Program-made: the position numbers and the translations under genes
Part shown: positions 28,959 to 40,966 of the stretch, piece after piece
How positions within the stretch are numbered: position 1 is the first letter of the stretch
How the letters are laid out: each line of letters starts with the position of its first letter
The notes under the pieces: model-generated
The model's input: the letters and a program-made list of their open reading frames with translations, nothing else
Told to the model about the DNA's origin: nothing
Databases searched by the model: none
Source of the DNA: Alphaproteobacteria bacterium
Lineage (GTDB): Bacteria; Pseudomonadota; Alphaproteobacteria; Micavibrionales; Micavibrionaceae
Assembly: GCA_023301585.1 (NCBI GenBank)
Contig: JAMASZ010000156.1
Location: 1-45,779 of the forward strand
Reading direction: 5' to 3'
DNA: 45,779 bases

Positions 28959-28993
28959 GAGGGGATGGGGCGAGTCCTTGTCCCCTCAATTTT
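28959..28993 (+). terminator. Putative hairpin terminator/attenuator
   Basis: GAGGGGA ... TCCCCTC followed by AATTTT. Confidence 0.4.
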
Positions 28994-29007
28994 CCAAGGG
29001 GAGCGAA

Positions 29008-29445
29008 GTGAGAAACAAACAAGACCAACGACGTCCAACAATCTGTCCGCCTTGCGGATCAACCCAAATAACCTTACACGCCCAAGGCAACGGAATGATG
29101 TATTTTCGTTGTAGAAACTGTAATGCCAAAGGCTGGACTCACACCGACACAGCTATCTCATTCGGTAGAATGGCGGACGGCCCCACGCGAGACCTAAGAC
29201 GTCAAGCACACGAGGCTTTTGATAAACTGTGGAAACACAACACTATGTACTCTCGGGAAGATGCCTATATTGCACTCTCGAAGCACTTAGGTATTGATCC
29301 AAATGAGTGCCATATTGGATTACTCACTGCGACACAATGCAGAAGAACGATCCGATGGGCGCAACAATCACTTGCGGGCCTGACCAAACCTAAGCGTAAA
29401 CCAGCAGGATCATGGCGCAATAAGAAGAGGAAACGCCGAAAATGA
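29008..29445 (+). CDS. Zinc-ribbon / DUF3268-like protein
   Basis: GTG start after AAGGGGAG; CPPCGS...CRNCNAKG zinc ribbon; LRRQAHEAFDKLWK...SREDAYIALSKHLGI...HIGLLTATQCRRTI. Confidence 0.75.
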   Translation: MRNKQDQRRPTICPPCGSTQITLHAQGNGMMYFRCRNCNAKGWTHTDTAISFGRMADGPTRDLRRQAHEAFDKLWKHNTMYSREDAYIALSKHLGIDPNECHIGLLTATQCRRTIRWAQQSLAGLTKPKRKPAGSWRNKKRKRRK

Positions 29446-30507: not shown

Positions 30508-30933
30508 ATGCAGACACCCATAACAAGTTTTAGTGGAAAACATAGGTTTCTCAGTAATTTTTGGCCCGCACCTGTAGAATTGGATGGAAAATGGTACCCT
30601 ACAGTGGAACACGCCTATGTTGCTGCAAAGACTATTGATCTACAGGATAGGGAGAACATCAGGCACATTTATTCTCCAGGACAGGCAAAACGATACGGAA
30701 AAAATCTAGTTCTTCGAGAAGGATGGAATGATTTACGTCTCGGAGCCATGGAAGATCTTTGTACTAAGAAATTTACGCTACTAGAAGAATGTCGAGTATC
30801 CCTCCTTATGACAGGCACGGCGGAACTTGTAGAGGGCAATAACTGGGGAGATACGTTTTGGGGAATGTCTAACGGTGTAGGATGCAATCACTTAGGCGTA
30901 ATTCTTATGCGGGTAAGAAACTCATTATGTTAA
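30508..30933 (+). CDS. NADAR-family (YbiA/DUF1768) protein
   Basis: FSGKHRFLSNFWPAPVELDGKWYPTVEHAYVAAK ... NNWGDTFWGMSNGVGCNHLGVILMRVR. Confidence 0.9.
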   Translation: MQTPITSFSGKHRFLSNFWPAPVELDGKWYPTVEHAYVAAKTIDLQDRENIRHIYSPGQAKRYGKNLVLREGWNDLRLGAMEDLCTKKFTLLEECRVSLLMTGTAELVEGNNWGDTFWGMSNGVGCNHLGVILMRVRNSLC

Positions 30934-33449: not shown

Positions 33450-33489
33450 AACCAATGTCAATTAACGACTTATCACTATGGAGCATCCA

Positions 33490-33999
33490 ATGACTAAAGA
33501 AACAGACGAAGCAGCCGCAACTGCATCAGCAAAACCAGCGCGTGAGCGCCAAAACGGTTTCACGAAGCCTGCCGAAGGCACAACAACCCGCCTTGTTTGG
33601 GATATCGCAGACGAGATCTCAGCAGCACAAGGCCGTCCGGCGATGCGGAACGAAGTCTTTGACGAGTTCACAAAACGCCTTGGTAAAGACGCCTCCGCTG
33701 GTACGTGCGGCACACAATATTCTCGTTGGTCTGGTTTCCATAGCGTCGGTCCTGTCTTGAAGAAAATGCGCGCCGAAGCCAAGGCAGCAGCGGACAAAGA
33801 AAAGGCCGATGCTAAAGCAGAGAAAGCAGCGGAACGCGCCGAAGCCAAAGCTGCAAAAGACAAGGCTGCTGCCGAGAAGAAAGAAGCGGCAGAAAAAGCA
33901 AAGGCCGATAAAGCAGCAGCTGCCAAGGCAAAGCAGGATGAGAAAGATCGTGTTGCGTCTGAAAAGGCAAAAGCAGCAGCGGCTAAAGCCAAAAAATAA
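33490..33999 (+). CDS. VWD...TQY..W domain (paralog C) fused to Ala/Lys-rich histone-H1-like tail
   Basis: TRLVWDIADEISAAQGRPAMRNEVFDEFTKRLGKDASAGTCGTQYSRWS followed by ~75 aa of KAEKAAERAEAKAAKDKAAAEKK-type sequence. Confidence 0.8.
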   Translation: MTKETDEAAATASAKPARERQNGFTKPAEGTTTRLVWDIADEISAAQGRPAMRNEVFDEFTKRLGKDASAGTCGTQYSRWSGFHSVGPVLKKMRAEAKAAADKEKADAKAEKAAERAEAKAAKDKAAAEKKEAAEKAKADKAAAAKAKQDEKDRVASEKAKAAAAKAKK

Positions 34000-34121: not shown

Positions 34122-34838
34122 ATGAAACCCAATAACCAACCGGTGGAAAAGCAATTCCATCACGACCGCGGAATGGTCGATCTTCACAGTATTTTCCACA
34201 CGATACAGGGCGAGGGGCCATTCACCGGCCATCGCTCAATCTTTGTCCGCCTTGCAGGATGCAATCTTATGTGTCCTGGATGTGATACCGAGTACACGCA
34301 AGGCCGCAAGAAGGTCATGCCTGAGTACGTCGTTAAAGAAGTCCAAAAGCTTCCAGAAGTTGAGCTCATTGTTCTAACAGGAGGCGAGCCTTTCCGCCAG
34401 AATATCTTACCACTTTGTCAGGTACTGTGGGATGCCGGATACAATATCCAGGTCGAGACAAATGGTGTTCGTCCTATCCCCTCTGAGTTGGCGGCGTGTT
34501 CCTCATCTTTCGGAGCAACTAAAGCGCGGTTTAGTGTTGTTGTTAGCCCTAAGACACATGTTGTCCATGAAAGCATTGCACGGATCGCCATTGCCTACAA
34601 ATACGTCCTCCAGGCAGGCAACGTGGATCGTGATGGCCTGCCTATCCAGGCTCTTCAAAATAAGGTCAAGAGGCGTGTTGCTCGGCCCACACGCAAAGAC
34701 ATTCCAATCTATATCAATCCATTTGACGAGAAAGACGATACTAAGAATCGTCTGAATCTCGACACCACCATCCGCTCCTGTTTGCAGCACGGGTACACGA
34801 TGGGAATACAGCTGCACAAATTCTTAAACATGGAGTGA
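34122..34838 (+). CDS. queE: 7-carboxy-7-deazaguanine synthase (radical SAM)
   Basis: FHTIQGEGPFTGHRSIFVRLAGCNLMCPGCDTEY (CX3CX2C) and LTGGEPF. Confidence 0.93.
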   Translation: MKPNNQPVEKQFHHDRGMVDLHSIFHTIQGEGPFTGHRSIFVRLAGCNLMCPGCDTEYTQGRKKVMPEYVVKEVQKLPEVELIVLTGGEPFRQNILPLCQVLWDAGYNIQVETNGVRPIPSELAACSSSFGATKARFSVVVSPKTHVVHESIARIAIAYKYVLQAGNVDRDGLPIQALQNKVKRRVARPTRKDIPIYINPFDEKDDTKNRLNLDTTIRSCLQHGYTMGIQLHKFLNME

Positions 34839-34841
34839 GCA

Positions 34842-35573
34842 ATGCCACAATCGACAATAGAAGCTTGTTTGGACGTAATGTCTAAACCCCCAAAACGTCA
34901 AGAAGGATCCGGACTCGTTGTTATGTCCGGAGGTCAGGATTCAACAACATGCCTTGGTGTCGCAATCATGCGGCATGGTCGTGAGAACGTGCGTGCTGTA
35001 GCATTCGACTATGGCCAGAAGCACTCAATCGAGCTTGAGCAGGCGCGCCTCATTTGCGAGCGTCACGAGATTCTCTTAATCACTGTGGACATCCCTGTTC
35101 TCAAGATGATGGAATCATCTGCACTTGTCACGCATGGCGACACGAGCGCACCACACGAATACCTTGCCGACCTGCCTGCTACGTTTGTTCCGGCGCGTAA
35201 TGCACTATTTTTGACCATGGCGTTTGGTCTTGCAATGGAAGCAAGAACGACACACATCTACACCGGCGTGTGTCAAACGGATTACTCAGGGTATCCAGAT
35301 TGCCGAGAAGAATTTGTTGTCGCCCTTGAGAACGCTCTTCAAGTTGGGTATCAATCAACAATCAAGATTGTTACCCCTCTCATGCACCTGGACAAAGCAG
35401 CGACGTTTGAGCTCGCGCGCCGGACGGGCGTTTGGGACGACGTGATCCAATTTTCTCATACGTGCTATGAAGGGGTCAGAGACAATCTTCATCCGTGGGG
35501 TGCGGGGTGTGGAGCGTGTCCAGCATGCGAGTTGCGCGCTAAAGGCTTTAACAAGTTTGAGGCTCGCTACTAA
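34842..35573 (+). CDS. queC: 7-cyano-7-deazaguanine (preQ0) synthase
   Basis: PP-loop VVMSGGQDSTTCL; YSGYPDCR; zinc motif CGACPAC. Confidence 0.94.
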   Translation: MPQSTIEACLDVMSKPPKRQEGSGLVVMSGGQDSTTCLGVAIMRHGRENVRAVAFDYGQKHSIELEQARLICERHEILLITVDIPVLKMMESSALVTHGDTSAPHEYLADLPATFVPARNALFLTMAFGLAMEARTTHIYTGVCQTDYSGYPDCREEFVVALENALQVGYQSTIKIVTPLMHLDKAATFELARRTGVWDDVIQFSHTCYEGVRDNLHPWGAGCGACPACELRAKGFNKFEARY

Positions 35574-36031
35574 TGCCGTACCGTTCAACCAAGACATACG
35601 GGCATGACGTTGGTCTGTCTTGTGTCTTCCGCCAACATGGCGCCAAGTCGCACTGTAACCAACTGCACGGGTATGCGCTCTCTGTCCGCCTTGAGTTCGA
35701 GTGTGAGCAGGGGCAGCGCGACGCTAACGGATGGGTTGTAGATTTCGGAGGCCTCAAAGAGGTCAAGCAATGGCTCAAAGATACGTTTGACCATAAGCTT
35801 TTAGTTGCTGAGAATGATCCAATGAAGGACGAGATCTGCGCCCTTGGCGGACTCGGAATTGCAGATCCCATTGTTGTTCCTGGAACGGGGTGTGAAGCCT
35901 TTGCAGCGATGGTATACATCTTTGTGAGTACATGGATGCAAAAGAAGGGTTATGTTTATGCTCGTCTTGCAGAAGTGCACGTAATGGAACACGGCGCAAA
36001 TAGCGCAATATATATTGAGGATAAGAAATGA
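35573..36031 (+). CDS. queD: 6-carboxy-5,6,7,8-tetrahydropterin synthase-like
   Basis: FRQHGAKSHCNQLHGYALSV, VDFGGLKEVKQWLKDTFDHKLLV; TAATG coupling to queC. Confidence 0.88.
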   Translation: MPYRSTKTYGHDVGLSCVFRQHGAKSHCNQLHGYALSVRLEFECEQGQRDANGWVVDFGGLKEVKQWLKDTFDHKLLVAENDPMKDEICALGGLGIADPIVVPGTGCEAFAAMVYIFVSTWMQKKGYVYARLAEVHVMEHGANSAIYIEDKK

Positions 36032-36933
36032 CACAGAAGACAATTTTGGATTACAGAACACTTGAAACCCGTGCGCGACGTGTAGCTGACGAGATTCTTT
36101 CTTCATTGACGGGCCACGAAGTTCCAGTACTATTTTACGGTGTTCCTCGTGGAGGGGTTCCGGCACTTTATCTTGTTCTTCAACATCTCTCCGGTGTGCC
36201 TTACGAAGTAACAGACAATCTTGCGATTGCTGAAATCATTATTGATGATCTAATTGATTCCGGATCCACAATGGAACGAGTTACGTTCGAGAATTCTACT
36301 GCGGATTTTTATGGGTTGTTTGATAAGCGCACAGAAGAAGACGCGGATCTTGGATGGATCGTCTTTCCTTGGGAATCGGCTGAGGACGCGGGTTTTGAAG
36401 ACAACGTCCGCCGCATGCTTCAAGCGATTGATCCAAACGCAGACAGAGAAGGGTTGATTGAGACCCCTGTCCGAGTTGCAAAAGCCTGGACAAAATGGGC
36501 AGAAGGTTACGGTCAAGATCCTGCTGGAATTTTAAAGGTGTTTGAAGACGGAGCAGGAAATTATGACGAGATGGTTACTGTTGCTAACATTCCAGTTTAT
36601 TCTAAGTGCGAGCATCACATGGCAGACATATTCGGAACGGCAACAGTGTCTTACATCCCTAACGGAAAGATTGTCGGGCTGTCCAAATTATCGCGCCTTG
36701 TCAACATCTATGCCCGACGCTTACAGGTGCAAGAGCGTCTTACTGTTCAGATCGCGGATGCCTTGCAGGAACACCTTGCGCCTCTTGGTGTTGGCGTCCA
36801 GCTCAAATGCCGGCACATGTGCATGGAATCGCGCGGCGTATGTCAACAGGGTCACCACACGGTAACGACTGCCTTGCGCGGTGTTATGAAGGAAGGCGAC
36901 CCACGGGCTGAGTTCCTGGCCGTCGCTGGTTGA
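36028..36933 (+). CDS. folE: Bifunctional fusion: Gpt-like phosphoribosyltransferase + GTP cyclohydrolase I
   Basis: N-term YGVPRGGVPALYLV ... AEIIIDDLIDSGSTM ... FDKR ... LGWIVFPWE (Gpt-like); C-term SKCEHHMADIFGTATVSYIPNGKIVGLSKLSRLVNIYARRLQVQERLT ... CRHMCMESRGV (GCYH-I). Confidence 0.9.
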   Translation: MTQKTILDYRTLETRARRVADEILSSLTGHEVPVLFYGVPRGGVPALYLVLQHLSGVPYEVTDNLAIAEIIIDDLIDSGSTMERVTFENSTADFYGLFDKRTEEDADLGWIVFPWESAEDAGFEDNVRRMLQAIDPNADREGLIETPVRVAKAWTKWAEGYGQDPAGILKVFEDGAGNYDEMVTVANIPVYSKCEHHMADIFGTATVSYIPNGKIVGLSKLSRLVNIYARRLQVQERLTVQIADALQEHLAPLGVGVQLKCRHMCMESRGVCQQGHHTVTTALRGVMKEGDPRAEFLAVAG

Positions 36934-36936
36934 TCC

Positions 36937-37839
36937 GTGCGCCTTTACCAAGCGGGCATTTATACATCCAATTTCAATCTCAAGGGCAAGGTCTACTCTA
37001 AGCTTGACGAGACGGAAAAATGGATGCGGCGATCCGTTGAGAATCACCTTGAGTCTTACCATTATATCGGTAAGCCTTCGGCTGTGCGCAAAATCCGCGC
37101 CGAAGGGATCAAGGTGTTTCTCGATAGCGGGGCGTTCTCAGCGTTCAGTCTCGGATCAGAAATCGACCTTGGAAAATACTGCGACTACATCCACGAGAAC
37201 GCGGACATAATTGACTTCCCTTCCGTCCTGGACGCCATTGGCGACGCGGAAGGCACATGGCGCAATCAAGAGGAAATGGAGCGGCGAGGAACAAAGCCTC
37301 TACCCTGTTTCCATTACGGTGAGCCGACTGAGATCCTGGATCATTATGTCAAGAATTATGATTACATAACCATTGGTGGGATGGTTCCAATCTCGACCGT
37401 TCAATTGCGGATTTGGCTGGATCGTTTATGGGAAGAACATCTCACAAACGCAGATGGATCACCAAAGACGAAAGTGCACGGCTTTGGTTTAACGTCACTG
37501 CCGCTTATGATGCGCTACCCTTGGTATTCTGTGGATAGTTCTACGTGGGTGCAGTGGGCGGCTAATGGCATGATTCTGGTTCCCACACGCACGGGCCAGC
37601 TCGATGTCTCAAACAAATCGTCTCGGCGCAAGATTCCAGGTCAACACATTGACAGCATGTCTCCTCTTGGGACGGCCGCGCTAGAAGATGACATCCGCTC
37701 TTTTCATATTGACCCTGACCGGTTAAGGGAGTATTATTATTCAAGGTGGGCATGGAACGCATGGGCTTTTCCATGGTATGCCCGAGAAAAAGAATATGAA
37801 GGGGACGTCTTTGTTCCCGACGTAATGAGGTTATTTTAA
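36937..37839 (+). CDS. dpdA: DpdA-like DNA 7-deazaguanine transglycosylase
   Basis: GTG start; IKVFLDSGAFSAF, CFHYGEPTEILDHYVKNYDYITIGGMVP, KVHGFGLTSLPLMMRYPWYSVDSSTWVQWA; TGT-superfamily-like, inside the queuosine-type operon. Confidence 0.88.
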   Translation: MRLYQAGIYTSNFNLKGKVYSKLDETEKWMRRSVENHLESYHYIGKPSAVRKIRAEGIKVFLDSGAFSAFSLGSEIDLGKYCDYIHENADIIDFPSVLDAIGDAEGTWRNQEEMERRGTKPLPCFHYGEPTEILDHYVKNYDYITIGGMVPISTVQLRIWLDRLWEEHLTNADGSPKTKVHGFGLTSLPLMMRYPWYSVDSSTWVQWAANGMILVPTRTGQLDVSNKSSRRKIPGQHIDSMSPLGTAALEDDIRSFHIDPDRLREYYYSRWAWNAWAFPWYAREKEYEGDVFVPDVMRLF

Positions 37840-38004
37840 ATGAGTGATTTTAAAGTCTCAAAAAAGACGCTAGAGTTGGCAAAACTCATAGAACCTAACC
37901 TTAATTGGGACAAAGAGTATTGGCCTCACGAAAAAAGATGGCATGCCCAATGGCGTGCAATTGGTGCTGCCGGAAGAATCATACAGGCAGGTTGGGATGC
38001 TTGA
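37840..38004 (+). CDS. 54-aa small ORF between dpdA and the clamp gene (below ORF-track cutoff)
   Basis: TAAATG junction after dpdA; MSDFKVSKKTLELAKLIEPNLNWDKEYWPHEKRWHAQWRAIGAAGRIIQAGWDA*; stop overlaps next start (37997). Confidence 0.5.
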   Translation: MSDFKVSKKTLELAKLIEPNLNWDKEYWPHEKRWHAQWRAIGAAGRIIQAGWDA

Positions 38005-38953
38005 CGCTCTCAACTTCGTGAAAGGCGCGGTCGCTAAGAAGGATTACGTTCCGGAACTCACTCACTTTCAGATCAAGGACGGAAGGGTCACCGGCTTTAA
38101 CGGGCAGATGACATTATCAAGCCCAATTGATTTGGATATTGAGGCGAATCCCAAAGCCCTGCCGTTCGTAAAGGCGGTTAACGCTTGCAAATCACAGATT
38201 GCGTTACACATTACAGGGGCAGGGCGTTTGGCGATACGATCCGGCAAATTTAGACGGTATGTTGATTGCCTTCCGGATGACGGTCTTATGACGTTTCACG
38301 AACCCGAGGGTGAGGATATGGAGGTCGGGGATAAGTTTCTAGTCGCGCTCAAAGCGTCATCTCCGTTCCAAGGTCAGGACGCCTCTCGCCCGTGGGCTCA
38401 CGGGGTTATGTTTAGGGGCCAATCTGCTTACGCGACCAATAACATCTGCATGATGGAGTATTGGCATGGTTGTCAATTCCCTGTCCCAATCAACATTCCA
38501 AAGAACGCGGTTGCGGAACTGTTACGGATCAAGCAACAGCCTACGCGGGTCCAAATGACGACCAGCTCTGTGACCTTTCATTTTGAAGGTGAGCGCTGGT
38601 TGAGAACATTACTCCTTGCCGACAACTGGCCCGACGTAACACCAATCCTTGCGTCTGGCGCACAACCGAAAAACATACCAGAAGGCTTCTTTGATGTCCT
38701 GGACGAGCTCAAGCCCTTTCTTGAAGACGGAGGCCGTGTGTATTTTGAGGACGGGATGATCTCAACAGCCGAGCACGAGGAGACCGGAACAATCATTGAC
38801 ATTGACGGGATCAACGAGGGGCCTTGTTTCCATCACAGCCAGCTCTGCATCTTAAACGGGATTGCAGATAAAATTGACTTTACAACTTATCCCAAACCGT
38901 GCAAGTTCACAGGTGAGAACGTAAGAGGTGTTATACTCGGGATGAGACGTTAA
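37997..38953 (+). CDS. Sliding-clamp-like (DnaN/PCNA fold) processivity factor
   Basis: MLDALNFVKGAVAKKDYVPELTHFQIKDGRVTGFNGQMTL...; C-terminal CKFTGENVRGVILGMRR; immediately upstream of DNA polymerase. Confidence 0.62.
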   Translation: MLDALNFVKGAVAKKDYVPELTHFQIKDGRVTGFNGQMTLSSPIDLDIEANPKALPFVKAVNACKSQIALHITGAGRLAIRSGKFRRYVDCLPDDGLMTFHEPEGEDMEVGDKFLVALKASSPFQGQDASRPWAHGVMFRGQSAYATNNICMMEYWHGCQFPVPINIPKNAVAELLRIKQQPTRVQMTTSSVTFHFEGERWLRTLLLADNWPDVTPILASGAQPKNIPEGFFDVLDELKPFLEDGGRVYFEDGMISTAEHEETGTIIDIDGINEGPCFHHSQLCILNGIADKIDFTTYPKPCKFTGENVRGVILGMRR

Positions 38954-40966
38954 TTGTCGCGCTTTGATAATATAGGCCTGTTCTGGCAGGATCTACCGTC
39001 GTCTCGTAAAAGGGGTGAGCGTGTGCTTGGCCCTATTCCGGACATTCCTGAGACAGGATGGCGACCCCCTACGTCGTTCCCTGATCTACGCGGAGAGCGC
39101 GTGATTGCGTTGGACACCGAGACATACGATCCGGAATTGAATGACTACGGGCCTGGATGGGCTCGGGACAAGGGCCATATGTGCGGGTTCTCTGTTGCTG
39201 TTCCAGGCAGGTCGTGGTATTTCCCTATGCGTCACGAGGTCCAAAAAGAATATAATATGGATCCAGATGCGTGCCTGAGATGGGCAAAGGACATGCTTGA
39301 GACCCCAAAGATTGACAAGGTGGGTGCGAACCTTATCTATGATATTGGCTGGTTTAAGCATGAAGGAATTGACGTTCAAGGCACGTTGCATGATGTCCAA
39401 TTTGCCGAGGCGCTCCTGGACGAGACATCCAAGGTTGCACTTGAAGCCCTTGGACAACGTCATTGCGGTATCGGTAAAGAATCGGACATCCTCAAAGAGT
39501 GGTGCGTCAATTATTACGGCGGATCCGAGGCCAAATGGAGGCGCAACATTTACCGCGCACCCGTCACGCTTTGCGGACGTTATGGTGAGCAAGACGCCGC
39601 ACTTCCCCTTGAAGTCATGCACAAACAATGGCCTCTGCTCGCACAGCAAGGCCTTCTCGACCTTTACAGGATGGAATGTGATTTGATTCCCCTGCTTGTC
39701 CAAATGCGCTACGCCGGTGTCAGTGTGGATATCCCATACGCTGAGAAGTTGCGTGACGAGTTCGAGACAGACGAGAAACGGATTCAAAAACTAATTGACG
39801 AGCAAGCAGGTTTCGCAGTCAATACAAATTCAGCAGACGATCTATCCCGTGCATTCCGGCAGATGGGCTTGACCCATCCAATGACAAAACCAACAACAAA
39901 TAATCCAGATGGTAAACCGTCGTTTGTAAAAGAATTTCTTGAGCAGCATCCGCACAAGTTTCCACAGTTAATCACTGAGATGCGGGGCGTCGCCAAGCTT
40001 CGCGGAACATTTGTAGAAGGTTACTTGCTCAATTCCCATGTGAACGGAAAAGTCCATGGCTCGTTTACGCCCTTAACTGGGACGGACGGCGGGGCGAAGA
40101 CAGGACGCTTTGCGAGTAAGAATCCGAATCTCCAAAACATTCCAACGCGAACCGCGGATGGCAAAAAGATCCGCCGCGCTTTCATTGTTGATCCTGGACA
40201 CGTCGAATGGCGTAAGTATGATTATTCACAAATTGAATACCGGCTACTCGCTCATTTTGCAACGGGGCCAGGCGCGGACGCGATCCGTGACGCTTACAAC
40301 AACGATCCTCGGACAGATTATCACCAGGCAACGATTGAGTTGATCCACTCGGTCACGGGAATCATGCTTGAGCGTGGCCAGGCAAAGAATATCAACTTCG
40401 GTATTGCTTACGGGATGGGGATCGTGAAGCTTGCAAAAGATCTTGGGGTGTCGATTAAGCAGGCCAAGGAATTATTGACCGCATACCATAAAGGTGTCCC
40501 GTTTGCCAAACCGACTATGAAGGCAATGTCCGAGTTTGCAGATATGCACGGGTTCAATCAAACAATCCTTAATCGCCGCACTCGGTTCAATACGTGGGAA
40601 CCTGCGGACTTTAGAGACAAACGTCGCCCCCTTCCTCTCAAGCAAGCTCTAGAAAAGTACGGATCAAACATTCAACGCGCGTACCTTTATCGGACGTTGA
40701 ATTATACCCTCCAAGGATCATCCGCAGACATGATGAAAGCGGCCATGCTCAAGTGTTACGTGGACGGTGTCTTTGACGTTACAGGTATCCCGCGCCTCAC
40801 TGTGCATGATGAATTGGACTTTAGTGTGGCTGAGCGCACCCCTATTGTTGAAGAGGGTTTCCGCGAGATGCGCCATATTATGCAGACTGTGATCCCGTTA
40901 CGGGTTCCGGTTATTTGCGACCTTGAGATTGGTCCAAATTGGGGTGACGTTAAGGAAGCGGCGTAG
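38954..40966 (+). CDS. Family A DNA polymerase with 3'-5' exonuclease domain
   Basis: TTG start; Exo motifs ALDTETYDP, GANLIYDIGW, YGEQDAA; Pol motifs YDYSQIEYRLLAHF, RGQAKNINFGIAYGMG, HDELDFS. Confidence 0.95.
   Translation: MSRFDNIGLFWQDLPSSRKRGERVLGPIPDIPETGWRPPTSFPDLRGERVIALDTETYDPELNDYGPGWARDKGHMCGFSVAVPGRSWYFPMRHEVQKEYNMDPDACLRWAKDMLETPKIDKVGANLIYDIGWFKHEGIDVQGTLHDVQFAEALLDETSKVALEALGQRHCGIGKESDILKEWCVNYYGGSEAKWRRNIYRAPVTLCGRYGEQDAALPLEVMHKQWPLLAQQGLLDLYRMECDLIPLLVQMRYAGVSVDIPYAEKLRDEFETDEKRIQKLIDEQAGFAVNTNSADDLSRAFRQMGLTHPMTKPTTNNPDGKPSFVKEFLEQHPHKFPQLITEMRGVAKLRGTFVEGYLLNSHVNGKVHGSFTPLTGTDGGAKTGRFASKNPNLQNIPTRTADGKKIRRAFIVDPGHVEWRKYDYSQIEYRLLAHFATGPGADAIRDAYNNDPRTDYHQATIELIHSVTGIMLERGQAKNINFGIAYGMGIVKLAKDLGVSIKQAKELLTAYHKGVPFAKPTMKAMSEFADMHGFNQTILNRRTRFNTWEPADFRDKRRPLPLKQALEKYGSNIQRAYLYRTLNYTLQGSSADMMKAAMLKCYVDGVFDVTGIPRLTVHDELDFSVAERTPIVEEGFREMRHIMQTVIPLRVPVICDLEIGPNWGDVKEAA

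Follow-up and report, generated by a model that had tools for sequence, protein, structure and literature searches.

A phosphoribosyltransferase domain without the flexible loop fused to GTP cyclohydrolase I in phage DNA 7-deazaguanine operons: a candidate for guanine salvage

The phage preQ0/dG+ operons described by Hutinet et al. (2019; PMC6884629) contain folE, queD, queE, queC and dpdA, as does the locus analysed here, and the group without an amidotransferase is predicted to put preQ0 in DNA. No phosphoribosyltransferase (PRT) domain is mentioned in the text of that paper. The locus adds such a domain to the N-terminus of FolE; its FolE half shares the complete domain and the zinc and GTP residues of phage and bacterial GTP cyclohydrolase I (phrog_2197, TIGR00063). 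With the type I purine PRTase Gpt (XGPRT) of Escherichia coli (1a95, 1nul, 4jls), the PRT domain has in common the fold, the loop I RGG, the loop III IDDLxDxGxT, the base-contacting Lys and W-I-x-x-P-W, in the same order, but it is about 118 residues long rather than 152, has a shorter hood, is fused to FolE and lacks a 22-residue segment that includes flexible loop II. The purine PRTase of Pyrococcus horikoshii (1vdm) carries an identical WIVFPWE segment, but is longer, its PPi and PRPP loops lying some 23 residues further apart, and is unfused. A further possible likeness is to the animal GTP cyclohydrolase I regulated by GFRP, in that an accessory module that binds a ligand may control FolE, although GFRP is a separate and unrelated protein.

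Both protein families and the operon are known, and sequences of the fusion have been public for years. The loop-less PRT domain and its fusion to FolE do not seem to have been described; a search for such a fusion in mostly open-access literature found no description.

The fusion reading frame and its operon

The window, a stretch of 45,779 nucleotides, is a phage contig within a metagenome-assembled bacterial genome, an assembly that we read as a bin because of its 387 contigs and 88% completeness. Megablast of its right half against phage records gave no match. On the forward strand, to which all coordinates below refer, an open reading frame of 301 residues (36028–36933) runs from an ATG without internal stop, its start overlapping the queD stop codon (ATGA at 36028). 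It encodes a PRT domain at residues ~1–118 (36028–36381), followed by a complete GTP cyclohydrolase I at residues ~124–300 (FolE domain, residues 124–301 plus stop, 36397–36933). The first-pass annotation had read this region as a single uninterrupted PRT and complete FolE frame set in a deazaguanine operon; the coordinates, the start codon, both Pfam domains and the position between queD and dpdA all agree with that description.

The FolE half matches PF01227 over residues 124–298 (E = 2.5e-63, score 213 over 27) and TIGR00063 at 196.4 bits, above the curated cut-off of 181.6. The CEHH, SK, Q-E, H-x-C and R motifs are invariant in 36 sequences, in which the zinc ligands and GTP residues, aligned with 1wm9, are kept (C194, H196, H197, S219, K220, E236, H263, C265 and R269). 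A different phage FolE, that of phage 9g, complements E. coli (PMC6884629).

The gene order is queE, queC, queD, PRT–folE, dpdA, clamp and DNA polymerase A. The radical SAM protein QueE (34122–34838; PF04055) has TIGR04322 as its best match, under the cut-off of that family, and directly 5′ of it lies a gene whose product ends in a long, Lys/Ala-rich tail (33478–33999). QueC (34842–35573; TIGR00364, 212 bits over 150.3) has no amidotransferase domain, so that, following the scheme of PMC6884629, the expected modification would be preQ0 or one of its derivatives, not archaeosine. QueD (35573–36031; PF01242, 3.5e-16, and motif) is a variant with C-x3-H-G-Y in place of the usual C-x3-H-G-H, in which a presumed zinc ligand is altered; HGY was found in 45 of 159 related loci. 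DpdA, the phage DNA-guanine transglycosylase (36937–37839; phrog_887, 1.5e-76), shows the TGT-type Asp motifs DSGAF and SVDSS in its translation, and is followed by a DNA polymerase processivity factor, or sliding clamp (37943–38953; phrog_947, 2.9e-67), and a family A DNA polymerase (38954–40966; PF00476, 8.4e-72).

Fold and conserved residues of the loop-less domain

Residues 1–121 alone matched PF00156 with E = 3.4e-7 (30.2 bits, cut-off 26.3). In hhalign, the PRT profile matched E. coli Gpt with a probability of 97.3 (E = 2.5e-11), and all of the Gpt landmarks listed in the first-pass annotation were aligned in this comparison. The AlphaFold2 model of the domain (pLDDT 93, pTM 0.86) had as its best Foldseek matches the purine PRTs 1vdm and E. 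coli XGPRT (probability 1.00, E about 1e-6; TM 0.6–0.65 by query length against purine PRTs). Domain search and structure prediction, proposed earlier as checks on the N-terminal half, both returned the PRT fold. Chance resemblance of motifs was ruled out by hhalign, by Foldseek and by the near-invariance of the motifs across 103 distinct fused frames.

Conservation was scored in an alignment of 104 rows representing these 103 distinct frames, in which the window is entered twice and one row is a fragment. In the PPi loop (loop I, VPRGG, residues 39–43; 36142–36156), R41 is kept in 98 rows, G42 in 101 and G43 in 102. The PRPP loop (loop III, IDDLIDSGST, residues 72–81; 36241–36270) retains D73 (103/104), D74 (102/104), D77 (100/104), G79 (103/104) and T81 (101/104). 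The base-contacting Lys and the W-I-x-x-PW segment of the XGPRT type are present as K100 (36325–36327; 99 rows) and as the purine-stacking segment W110-IVFPWE116 (36355–36375), with W110 in 102 rows, P114 in all 104, and W115 and E116 in 103 each. These ligand-site residues are the best-conserved portion of the domain. Among 11 measurable pairs, not all of them independent contigs, dN/dS of the PRT part was 0.04–0.43; the substrate-site motifs are near-invariant and under purifying selection. One fused copy (L054, 5947–6894) has decayed PPi and PRPP motifs (VTKEV and LDLVLNTG) next to an intact FolE.

A feature overlooked in the first-pass annotation is the deletion of the flexible loop, an element described as common to all HPRTs and as covering the active site during catalysis (PMC6783271). 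Relative to Gpt, hhalign placed a 22-residue gap between the PPi and PRPP landmarks, at the position of the Gpt flexible loop, and the joint alignment agrees. In its place stands a short turn, DNLAIA (residues 63–68; 36214–36231), in which A68 is kept in 99 of 104 rows. The model accordingly runs from a strand (59–61) through a short helical turn to a strand (70–76), with no intervening hairpin. The segment is absent from every fused copy: RGG-to-DD spacing is about 24–40 residues in measurable copies compared with 51 in Gpt, a few larger values stemming from an earlier Gly-Gly. Judged by the features of type I PRTs (PF00156), the fold and the PRPP-binding motif DD..DSG.T are present and the flexible catalytic loop II is absent. 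The XGPRT/Gpt equivalog NF006613 was not reached by the window domain (19.8 bits, cut-off 138), and the best of 33 relatives matched it with an E-value of just 3.8e-8. The earlier label of 'Gpt-like' holds for the XGPRT-type fold and the substrate-contact residues, but without the flexible-loop segment this is no ordinary Gpt; by its sequence, the module is a loop-less derivative of XGPRT.

Distribution of the fusion and its relatives

A search for other PRT–FolE fusions, which the first-pass annotation had suggested, recovered 110 distinct fused frames, mostly in phages and phage contigs, together with 32 distinct FolEs that have no PRT domain; the counts come from two viral-contig scans (with the whole protein and with the PRT domain alone) and one genome scan seeded with a narrower alignment. 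So many fused frames rule out an annotation error, or a frameshift that had merged two genes. Of the 80 loci from the viral scan seeded with only the PRT domain, 79 had it fused to FolE and the last had FolE as the next gene; within phages, the loop-less PRT domain belongs to FolE. By tblastn, the fusion occurs in isolated phages of Pseudomonas (PaMx25, NP1 and others), Stenotrophomonas, Xanthomonas, Sphingomonas (MMDA13), Variovorax and Vibrio. Where annotated in isolate records, it is called GTP cyclohydrolase only. In the PaMx25 record (L003, 5907–6798), the fusion frame is open, but the annotation breaks it up: folE is shortened, and a hypothetical protein is called in a different frame. 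The FolE of Vid5, which carries an N-terminal extension, is not a PRT fusion.

DpdA lies beside 73 of the 75 distinct fused frames with at least 2.5 kb of flank on both sides, and QueC, QueD and QueE are all present at 60 of these 75. The fusion is therefore not found mostly apart from a deazaguanine transglycosylase, an outcome that had been named as one that would count against its proposed role. Both fused loci without DpdA are Chloroflexota chromosomal copies (L177, 5935–6903; L178, 5905–6774) that combine a mini-PRT with a diverged, degenerate FolE in which one His of CEHH is lost; metabolic genes surround them, and no que or dpdA genes are nearby. DpdA likewise accompanies the unfused FolEs recovered by this search (25 of 25). 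In all, the roughly 30 distinct DpdA-linked FolEs without a PRT domain rule out the idea that the PRT accompanies DpdA wherever it is present, and indicate that the module is optional and unneeded for DNA deazaguanylation. No link was visible to GAT-QueC (archaeosine) as against plain QueC: among fused loci 22 of 84 have GAT-QueC, and among unfused loci 6 of 27.

In the FolE tree, sequences with and without the PRT domain are intermingled, with a minimum of 11 changes, and well-supported branches force at least five gains or losses. Some pairs diverge very unequally between their halves (in L096/L095, dN is 0.017 for the PRT and 0.184 for FolE), and this suggests that exchange took place where the two domains meet.

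The genome scan also revealed a loop-less PRT, about 130 residues long, that stands alone in Prochlorococcus and its relatives (e.g. L193, 5869–6306). Of 61 Prochlorococcus genomes searched, 51 have it, several of the others being small and probably incomplete assemblies; it looks like a core gene of the genus. The Prochlorococcus and Synechococcus proteins share the deletion boundaries, RGG, DD, Lys and WIVFPWE with the phage domain, but are unfused, lie away from que and dpd genes, and have DDVYETG in loop III, with Glu in place of D77. Neither HGPRT (TIGR01203) nor XPRT (NF006613) was found above cut-off in the five cyanobacterial genomes tested, and an HGPRT-like match in one of them looks PyrR-like. 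Since it has no output domain and no above-cut-off HGPRT or XPRT accompanies it in the genomes tested, the standalone protein is probably an enzyme. This makes catalysis by loop-less PRTs in general more likely, though indirectly, given the Glu in loop III of the cyanobacterial proteins.

Guanine salvage and its alternatives

We propose that the PRT domain phosphoribosylates guanine, and not preQ0, thereby feeding GTP back to FolE, and put the probability of this predicted activity at slightly under one half (about 0.47). TGT-type enzymes free one guanine for every base inserted, and DpdA is expected to do likewise in DNA. With domain, fold, residues, operon, co-occurrence and selection as observed, the activity, substrate and flux that we infer would run as follows. 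A domain descended from the Gpt branch, its flexible loop gone, would still bind PRPP-Mg and guanine, and would yield GMP either slowly or with a lid contributed by an adjacent subunit or by the FolE domain. DpdA would swap preQ0 into DNA and release guanine, which the PRT would recapture as GMP; host kinases would raise GMP to GTP, and this would re-enter preQ0 synthesis at its first step, FolE. Recapture would also pull the DpdA exchange forward. The fusion is a candidate answer to two questions in phage 7-deazaguanine biology, what becomes of the guanine that DNA transglycosylation sets free and the GTP cost of preQ0.

Guanine salvage is favoured by the retention of all the substrate-contact positions (RGG, DD, D77, T81, K100, W110 and PWE) over deep divergence. 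It is also supported by the tight linkage to DpdA and, at all 80 loci of the PRT-seeded scan, to FolE, and by the probably enzymatic nature of the Prochlorococcus protein. D77 and K100 correspond to Asp137 and Lys165 of human HGPRT, the residues nearest to purine N7 (3.6 and 3.4 Å; PMC2228302), and their conservation would favour guanine over 7-deazaguanines. Against this reading stand the absence of the flexible loop from all copies, the DpdA-linked FolEs that manage without a PRT and the gains or losses forced on the tree, the copy that lost its PRPP motifs and kept FolE, and the fact that hosts usually have a Gpt or Hpt of their own. If the PRT is active, it would be an exception to the accepted flexible-loop requirement of type I purine PRTases, and an unexplained Prochlorococcus core gene would gain a likely role in purine salvage. 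A broader version, in which loop-less PRTs form a separate lineage of functional purine PRTases that work without a lid and the phage protein is a bifunctional enzyme closing a guanine–GTP–preQ0–DNA cycle, seems to us rather unlikely.

A close rival, which we regard as quite possible, is that the lid-less domain acts as a ligand sensor, binding PRPP, GMP/guanine or (p)ppGpp and tuning FolE to the purine supply in a GFRP-like manner. The catalytic loop is gone from all copies and the binding loops are retained, as might be expected of a sensor, and the partner, FolE, is the first and committed step of the pathway. There is precedent in the known complexes of GFRP with GTP cyclohydrolase I (7ala, 7alb, 1is7) and in the HPRT of Bacillus subtilis, where ppGpp binds across loops I and III and a tetrameric loop II deletion binds pppGpp as well as the wild type does (PMC6783271). 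However, the standalone homologues of Prochlorococcus have no output domain to be tuned, and the residues that contact PPi, Mg and base are all retained, which is more than a simple sensor would need. In particular, retention of the PPi-loop Arg argues for catalysis, since a sensor of the base or GMP only would not require it. Were the domain a sensor, phages would have invented a GFRP-like control of FolE.

It is improbable that the PRT is mainly a structural or oligomerization module, joining FolE to QueD, DpdA or another partner, for example, with its motifs as ancestral leftovers. Its repeated gain or loss and the single degenerate copy would fit such a role, but scaffolding would not need the ligand-site residues to be the most conserved. 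The alternative raised in the first-pass annotation, phosphoribosylation of preQ0 or a related 7-deazapurine base, we consider very improbable: the domain lies in a preQ0 operon and preQ0 is similar to guanine at O6, N1 and N2, but this reaction would give a nucleotide whereas the neighbouring DpdA takes the free base, the nearly invariant Asp and Lys lie, in homologous structures, nearest to an N7 that preQ0 does not have, and the cyanobacterial homologues are found outside que/dpd operons. The presence of the fusion in culturable phages (PaMx25, NP1, Bhz54, MMDA13 and VpKK5) makes these readings directly testable.

Two further genes of the window lie upstream of the operon. One encodes a DUF3268 zinc-finger protein (28978–29445) that weakly matches Lar, a restriction alleviation protein. 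The other, between genes for a Cas4-like exonuclease and a helicase, encodes a NADAR-domain protein (30508–30933; PF08719, E = 2e-23); NADAR enzymes act on N-glycosidic bonds, and the gene is of interest beside a system that exchanges guanine in DNA.
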